Shown: positions 13,137-15,393 of the stretch, in pieces
Position numbering within the stretch: position 1 is the first letter of the stretch
Layout: the number at the start of each line of letters is the position of its first letter
Origin: Gammaproteobacteria bacterium
GTDB taxonomy: Bacteria > Pseudomonadota > Gammaproteobacteria > GRL18
Length of the DNA: 42,358 nucleotides
Direction of reading: 5' to 3'
Assembly: GCA_027012135.1 (NCBI GenBank)
Contig: JALUZF010000027.1
Location: 1 to 42,358, forward strand
Notes under the pieces: generated by a model
What the model was told of the DNA's origin: nothing
Database searches by the model: none
The model's input: only the letters and a program-made list of their open reading frames with translations
Program-made: the position numbers and the translations under genes

Positions 13137-13182
13137 ATTAATATGTGTTAATGTTTATAAGTCGTTCAGAAGGTGCATGGTA

Positions 13183-14169
13183 ATGCATGGAAGTATTGAA
13201 CATCCGCTCACAGTAAGTCCAGATCAACAGGGCAGCTATTTTATGTCTGAGTATTTATCCGACTTTTTAACCGATTTTTTAAATTCCAGTTTTGTAAACC
13301 AGCTTTCTTCATTTATTGACCAGTTAGTTGCCCAATCATCAGATGTAAAATACCTTCTGCTGTTTCTGGGAATAGCCATGCTTTTTCTGTTTATGTTGTT
13401 TTTTTTCAGAGCCAGAGAGCAGCCGGATGATGAGTTTATTCATATACCCGTTACAAAATACCCGGACAATCCAGAAACTGATAGTTTAGATACTAATATT
13501 TCAGGGACTGACACAGCAATTAATAATACCTCTTCAGATAGTGTTGATGATACCGACGTTAAGCATTTAAAAACTCGTCTTAAAGATAAAAATATACTTG
13601 AGGCGGCGTTTCAGCCTGAATGGGATGTGCATAATACCATGGCTGATATTCAGAGTGATGAAATAAACAGCCCTTTAATGAGTGATGAAATATCTGATCC
13701 GCTCAATTCAATGGCAGAGATTAGAAAAGTTAATCAAAGTACCCTGGATCAACGGATCAGCGCCTTTCAGGAGCTCAATACTGATATTCAGATGGCTGAT
13801 GAACAATGGCTGCAGGAATTTGAAAATATCCGCAATAACGAGAAACTGGATGTTTTTATCGATGAATTTGAACAACTATTATCAGAAATAAACAGTCGTA
13901 CAAAAAATGTGGAAGATAGTCCGGAAAATCTGGATAATTTAATCCAGTTTCAGTCCTCCATTCGCTTTATTAAGGTGCTTTCTGAAATGGTACAGGCACA
14001 ACGTTTAAATCGTTTTTCCTATACCGTGGCAGAATTTCTTGACGGTCTGATTGAAGGGAAGATCAGTACATCTTCTGACACCGGCAGGCGCTTAAGCAAG
14101 GTGGCTAAATTTTATAACCAGTACAGCCGATTGTTAAAAGGCCAGTCCAGTTATAAAATTTCTGCTTAA
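13183..14169 (+). CDS. Unknown single-TM protein with acidic cytoplasmic region
   Basis: I do not recognise this protein. From the ATG at 13183 it has 328 residues; AGAAGG at 13168-13173 fits this start better than the ATG two codons upstream. One membrane helix lies at about 57-75 (YLLLFLGIAMLFLFMLFFF), followed by RAREQ, so the long C-terminal part should be cytoplasmic. Residues about 80-160 are acidic and of low complexity with many Asp, Ser and Thr. Residues 175-325 are predicted helical with a conserved-looking end (RLSKVAKFYNQYSRLLKGQ). Its stop is 6 nt from that of the convergent soxXA gene. Codon use looks like that of its neighbours. A motility or envelope role would be a guess. Confidence 0.65.
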   Translation: MHGSIEHPLTVSPDQQGSYFMSEYLSDFLTDFLNSSFVNQLSSFIDQLVAQSSDVKYLLLFLGIAMLFLFMLFFFRAREQPDDEFIHIPVTKYPDNPETDSLDTNISGTDTAINNTSSDSVDDTDVKHLKTRLKDKNILEAAFQPEWDVHNTMADIQSDEINSPLMSDEISDPLNSMAEIRKVNQSTLDQRISAFQELNTDIQMADEQWLQEFENIRNNEKLDVFIDEFEQLLSEINSRTKNVEDSPENLDNLIQFQSSIRFIKVLSEMVQAQRLNRFSYTVAEFLDGLIEGKISTSSDTGRRLSKVAKFYNQYSRLLKGQSSYKISA

Positions 14170-14175
14170 TTTAGA

Positions 14176-15393
14176 TTAATAACGGATAGCAGGCGTTTCG
14201 ATGGGCAGGCCATTCCCCCTGGCGTTGAGATAAATTTCCAGGTCGCGAAATTCATCAGAATCCTGTTCAAAGGTTTCTGCCCTCAGAGAGCGGAAACATT
14301 CCCTTAAACGCTGTGGGAGATTAATCATTTTCTGAGCTTCAAGACGGTATTCCGGAAAACCATTGGTATGTCCCTGAGACAGTTTCTGACCACGCAGCAT
14401 TTTCCCTGTATGGACATCATGGCAATGATCACAGCTCATATTCATCTGTCCGAAACGGGTATAATATAATTTTTTCCCGGCTTCATAATACGGTTTCATG
14501 GGGCCGCTGACATCTACATTGACTTTTTCACCCTGGGCCAGATAACGCAAAAAGGTTTCCAGGGCCAGTAATTCTCTGTCATCATACAGCAGGGGCAGAT
14601 TATCCAGCTGGTTTTCCCAGCAGCGTTGAATCTGATCTCGCAGGGTTAATGGTTTACCCAGTTCGGCAATAAACTTCGGGTATTGTGCAATACTGGCAGG
14701 GGAGAGCTGTTCACCGTCGGCACCGTGACAGCTGGCACAGCTTTTATCATCATCACAGGGCCGGGCAAATAATTTTTTCCCCAGTTCAATTAATTCATAA
14801 CCCGGATTCTGAAAATCATCATCCTGCATTTCCCGGGCTTCCTGGGAAATAAACTCATAACCGGATTTAAGGCCGTCAGGTATTGGCAGGGTATTGGCTT
14901 CTATAGCCTTATCCGGTGCTTTTAAGGTCTTAAGATAGGCAATTAAATCTTCTACCTCCTGAGCACTGAGAATGGTGGTACCCTCATATTGAGGTGCAAT
15001 GCGGTTAATATACCGGGTACTGAGGTAATAGCTGGGCATAATAGTAAACGGGTTTAAACGCTGCATATCCACAATCCGTAAACGCAGATCTGCCGCATTA
15101 AATTTATTACTGATATCATACAGGGCAGGACCGATAGTGCCATGGAATTCCTCTTCTGGTATCGGCAGCTGATGACAGGAAATACAGTTACCCTTATTCC
15201 TGTTCTTTGCCAGCAGACGGCCTCTAGCAGGATCGCCTGTTAAATTATTCAGAGGTTCACTAATAGCATTGTCAGTAATGGTATAAGAAGGTTCTTCAGC
15301 CTGAATGCTTATAATGCCTGACAAGCAGCACAGTAAAAACAGAAACATGGACTTGCGCACAAAATACACCTTTATAAGATAATGTTTATTCAC
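14176..15393 (-). CDS. soxXA: Fused SoxX-SoxA triheme cytochrome c
   Basis: A 405-residue periplasmic protein with a Sec signal (residues 1-32). Residues about 50-158 form a SoxX domain: haem motif CISCH (70-74), RIVDMQRLNPFTIMPSYY with the likely axial Met119, and AQEVEDLIAYLKTL. Residues about 174-405 form a diheme SoxA: REMQDDDFQNPG, CASCH (219-223) with Cys258 as probable axial ligand, CDHCH (321-325), and RLRECFRSLRAE in which C366 matches the active-site cysteine persulfide ligand. In the Sox pathway SoxXA conjugates thiosulfate to the SoxYZ carrier; normally SoxX and SoxA are separate chains. No soxYZ, soxB or soxCD lies in this window. The fusion is seen directly; activity is inferred. 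Confidence 0.9.
   Translation of the reverse strand: MNKHYLIKVYFVRKSMFLFLLCCLSGIISIQAEEPSYTITDNAISEPLNNLTGDPARGRLLAKNRNKGNCISCHQLPIPEEEFHGTIGPALYDISNKFNAADLRLRIVDMQRLNPFTIMPSYYLSTRYINRIAPQYEGTTILSAQEVEDLIAYLKTLKAPDKAIEANTLPIPDGLKSGYEFISQEAREMQDDDFQNPGYELIELGKKLFARPCDDDKSCASCHGADGEQLSPASIAQYPKFIAELGKPLTLRDQIQRCWENQLDNLPLLYDDRELLALETFLRYLAQGEKVNVDVSGPMKPYYEAGKKLYYTRFGQMNMSCDHCHDVHTGKMLRGQKLSQGHTNGFPEYRLEAQKMINLPQRLRECFRSLRAETFEQDSDEFRDLEIYLNARGNGLPIETPAIRY

Follow-up and report, generated by a model that had tools for sequence, protein, structure and literature searches.

The window examined here, a stretch of 42,358 nucleotides taken as a whole, carries a gene whose product is very probably a working trihaem (type-I) SoxXA that is exported as one chain and that arose when a soxX-soxA pair fused in place. 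As judged from its sequence, the protein most likely acts as a type-I SoxXA in the coupling of thiosulfate to SoxYZ. The fused architecture is already known, and what is new here is another member with an unusually clear origin. In thiosulfate-using Halorhodospira, 'SoxX is fused to the N-terminus of SoxA' to give a trihaem protein (PMC8877833), and fused SoxAX has been reported for Beggiatoaceae (PMC11172852). The Halorhodospira protein, which belongs to a different organism and is compared by description only, has the same domain order, a dihaem SoxA following SoxX in a single trihaem protein (PMC8877833). The Beggiatoaceae SoxAX is likewise one fused protein; however, those genomes reportedly lack individual soxX, whereas the genome studied here has separate soxX genes as well (PMC11172852). 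Given these published cases and the further fused frames found in this work, the novelty implied by the earlier note does not stand.

The gene is a single open frame of 405 codons plus a stop, free of internal stops and located on the minus strand, which the earlier note had left unstated (table 1). Its first codon is the GTG at 15393, but the true start is probably the GTG at 15360 (residue 12), which is the likelier of the two because it has AAAGG 8 nt ahead and leaves a normal signal peptide. Sequence and structure model agree on one signal-like helix at the N-terminus and none between the SoxX and SoxA domains. A SoxX domain thus precedes a dihaem SoxA domain in one frame behind one signal peptide. 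Both halves score above the cutoffs of their NCBIfam models (SoxX, TIGR04485, 80.1 bits against a cutoff of 61; SoxA, TIGR04484, 199.6 bits against 110), and the original description of one polypeptide, SoxX then dihaem SoxA with all three haem sites, is borne out, as are the residue positions assigned to CISCH, Met119, CASCH, Cys258, CDHCH and Cys366.

The SoxX half has the CxxCH motif and the distal Met expected of a His/Met haem; M119 aligns with the Met of 'TVMPAYY' in SoxX 1h31_B. The SoxA half appears to be of type I (dihaem), with two CxxCH motifs and predicted cysteine axial ligands, C258 and C366 aligning with cysteines 114 and 222 of Rhodovulum sulfidophilum SoxA 1h31_A (chain numbering counted from the alignment). 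Two arginines of the thiosulfate site are invariant in SoxA (PMC4423706), and the alignment places both in the fused protein, at R362 (C-4) and R350 (C-16). An extra cysteine, Cys213 (14755-14757, minus strand), lies six residues ahead of CASCH; the three fused proteins of the genus all have it, and the unfused sister proteins lack it.

Table 1. Features of the fused soxXA gene, in coordinates of the window.
Feature	Position	Strand	Basis
Fused soxXA gene	14176..15393	-	405-codon frame, GTG start
Predicted signal peptide, residues 12-32 (VRKSMFLFLLCCLSGIISIQA, cleavage after IQA)	15298..15360	-	Inference from sequence; helix 3-27 in structure model
SoxX domain, residues 66-157	14923..15198	-	TIGR04485; 1h31_B, 1h32_B
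SoxX haem motif CISCH, residues 70-74	15172..15186	-	Sequence
Met119, expected distal ligand of SoxX haem	15037..15039	-	Alignment
Linker, residues 159-174	14872..14919	-	Replaces SoxX tail and SoxA signal peptide of unfused relatives; pLDDT <50 at 162-173
SoxA domain, residues 197-404	14182..14805	-	TIGR04484; 1h31_A Z 24.4
First SoxA haem motif CASCH, residues 219-223	14725..14739	-	Sequence
Cys258, axial ligand of first SoxA haem	14620..14622	-	Aligned with R. sulfidophilum SoxA Cys114
Active-site SoxA haem motif CDHCH, residues 321-325	14419..14433	-	Sequence
Cys366, active-site haem ligand	14296..14298	-	Aligned with R. sulfidophilum SoxA Cys222

Among proteins of solved structure, the closest sequences to the SoxA half are Paracoccus 2c1d_A (E 1.5e-46) and Rhodovulum 1h31_A, and the closest to the SoxX half is Rhodovulum 1h31_B. 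A structure model of the fused chain, built from a 24-row alignment with haems not included, is of moderate confidence (mean pLDDT 72.5, pTM 0.57), with a low-confidence linker. Its SoxA part (residues 169-403) matches 1h31_A with a Z of 24.4 (2.6 Å over 221 residues), and its SoxX part (31-158) matches 1h32_B with a Z of 13.3 (3.1 Å over 112 residues). With such a linker and unmodelled haems, the relative placement of the two domains in the model is tentative. The type-I SoxXA proteins of R. sulfidophilum (1h31) and Paracoccus pantotrophus (2c1d) resemble the fused protein in having three haems, the same ligands by alignment and the same fold in each domain, but they are heterodimers of two chains encoded by two genes, whereas the protein in the window is one chain.

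The thiosulfate dehydrogenase TsdA also joins two cytochrome modules, with a class I cytochrome c domain placed after the SoxA-like catalytic one. TsdA shares with the fused protein the SoxA-like catalytic domain and a haem ligated by cysteine, but differs in its second domain, in domain order and in a weaker structural match to the model (Z 8.3 over 102 residues). An identity as TsdA or another dihaem cytochrome is rejected: here the class I cytochrome precedes a dihaem SoxA, SoxA scores above its cutoff and the TsdA Z is lower. By family model and by structure alike, the C-terminal half is closest to SoxA, and the concern that it might align better with a non-Sox dihaem cytochrome falls away.

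The source assembly is fragmented (325 contigs, 4.59% contamination), which might suggest that an assembly or sequencing error had joined two genes. Such an artefact is rejected and has a negligible probability, because two other genomes of the genus carry the same frame with its linker conserved, at 95% identity in G002 (JANELJ010000218.1) and at 93% in G003, where it is truncated by a contig end; a frame error would need to have recurred. The possibility raised in the earlier note, that the halves are separate genes misjoined in assembly, is thereby answered by three genomes with the fusion. The fused gene is under purifying selection, with dN/dS of about 0.05-0.13: among the three copies the values are 0.11-0.13 for SoxX, 0.05-0.06 for SoxA and 0.05-0.10 for the 16-residue linker, the last from very few sites. 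That several relatives are without the locus might be taken to mean that a decaying gene has been caught in the fused state; this is very improbable, since all three segments are under the same constraint, stops are absent and every ligand is kept.

The origin of the fusion can be traced in place because relatives hold both unfused genes at the matching chromosomal spot. In the sister genus g4, an unfused soxX-soxA pair occupies the corresponding slot in the same orientation. Both flanks of the slot (MFS/aroC and trpF) match in G013, G014, G016 and G017, while the trpF flank alone is available before the contig ends in G008, G011 and G018. The g4 pairs (e.g. L059, L061, L062) are orthologous in position and of the trihaem type, with about 64-71% identity to the fused protein in SoxA and about 46-64% in SoxX. 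They differ in consisting of two genes with separate signal peptides and mostly a 4-base overlap (in L059, L061, L062 and L064), whereas the fused gene is one frame. The g4 SoxX ends with a short tail and SoxA begins with its own signal peptide; the fused protein bridges this point with some 16 linker residues (APDKAIEANTLPIPDG). A coupled soxX-soxA pair would thus have fused in place, with a short linker taking over from both the tail and the signal peptide. The slot is empty in some relatives: G001, a member of the same genus, has trpF directly followed by a relative of the 330-aa protein that neighbours the fused gene, and in G009 and G020 the MFS gene comes directly after trpF. A search of the empty slot of G001 for a soxXA remnant gave nothing convincing (E 0.91). 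At two further loci (L070:6244-7671 and L071:7441-8721), soxX and soxA lie nearly end to end and are returned by the genome search as one frame interrupted only by stops, an arrangement that could give rise to a fusion.

Fused frames are not confined to this genus. In a class sample of 369 genomes searched at a threshold of 1e-30, 36 had a match, and uninterrupted single frames over SoxX and SoxA were found in G000, G002, G144, G156, G305 and G361, with a weaker frame over both halves in G042. A phylum sample, thin and searched at a strict threshold, gave matches in 48 of 398 genomes and no other single match over both halves. A plasmid of Indioceanicola has a fused frame followed by putative soxY, soxZ, soxB, soxC and soxD, named from translations since the region is unannotated in its record; a hit in Allomeiothermus (H16) consists of separate, unfused genes. 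The closest other fused frame, in G144, is 50% identical to the gene of the window and does not group with it. Instead, trees place the gene with its unfused sister genes (support 100/100 for SoxA and 100/99 for SoxX), apart from the other fused forms. AU tests reject trees in which all fused rows are held together (p 0.001 for SoxA and 0.009 for SoxX) and trees that hold the gene with G144 (p 0.0008 and 0.002, respectively). A single origin of all sampled fused forms is therefore rejected, with the caveats that several rows have long branches and that the sample was chosen. The trees require three or more changes of state, again with several rows long-branched. The results point to more than one origin of SoxXA fusion.

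Within the window the gene is solitary, as first described, with soxYZ and soxB absent and non-Sox neighbours on both sides. One flank holds the 330-aa protein, an MFS transporter and aroC, and the other trpF/trpB/trpA/accD/folC. The 330-aa protein (13177-14169, plus strand) has one hydrophobic segment and gave no match in Pfam and NCBIfam searches; its relatives are patchy at the corresponding slot, with or without soxXA. Elsewhere in the source genome, the search proposed in the earlier note found soxY and soxZ adjacent on one contig (C162), soxB on another (C108) and two further, separate soxX-soxA pairs whose SoxA has a single CxxCH (monohaem). The first pair lies on C99, and after it comes a 104-aa protein, a possible SoxK by its place and size. 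The second is split across C107 and C133 of G000, whose ends (in L009 and L008) have 127 identical bases in common inside soxA; the two contigs evidently join to give one pair. Family searches, on which statements of gene absence in this genome are based, gave no match for soxC. They found a single SoxY and a single SoxZ. No other trihaem-type SoxXA turned up in the genome, but the fused gene is not its only SoxXA, and the stronger case that the earlier note had envisaged, a complete Sox set lacking any other soxXA, does not apply. Several genomes of the family (G011, G014, G016, G017, G018, and at L007:3625-5228) likewise match SoxA at two more places in addition to the trihaem type, with ~30-35% identity.

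SoxAX joins thiosulfate to a cysteine of SoxYZ, probably via a thiosulfonate formed at the cysteine that ligates the haem; an alternative scheme based on copper has been put forward and is disputed (PMC4423706). The residues needed for the thiosulfonate scheme, C366, R350 and R362, are kept in the fused protein by alignment, and the mechanism beyond this conservation is one that we infer from the family. Once the chain had been exported and its haems attached, thiosulfate would be coupled oxidatively to C366, at the second haem of SoxA. From there the thiosulfonate would move to the carrier cysteine of SoxY, and two electrons would travel via the first SoxA haem and the haem of the tethered SoxX to an external acceptor. 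Sulfate release would then be the task of SoxB.

The fused copy need not be the main enzyme, because the genome has two other soxX-soxA pairs. It is conceivable, though rather unlikely, that it is a specialised isozyme serving another condition, partner or direction beside the two monohaem pairs, which would share the one SoxYZ. Thiosulfate-SoxYZ coupling would then fall mainly to the separate pairs, and the tethered SoxX might have been favoured for an altered electron exit or for stability under particular conditions, itself a doubtful proposition. The additional pairs, the single SoxY and SoxZ, and the other SoxA genes kept by several relatives without the locus would all suit such a division of labour. 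Against it, every SoxA-specific residue is kept and the neighbouring genes give no hint of another substrate. A specialised isozyme would still be compatible with a working type-I SoxXA, which is the preferred explanation of the gene.

One slot thus occurs in three states among related bacteria, empty, with a soxX-soxA pair and with the fused gene, which provides a natural before-and-after pair. With about 70% identity in SoxA, the fused and unfused enzymes lend themselves to comparison, and are useful for asking whether a tethered SoxX affects electron transfer.
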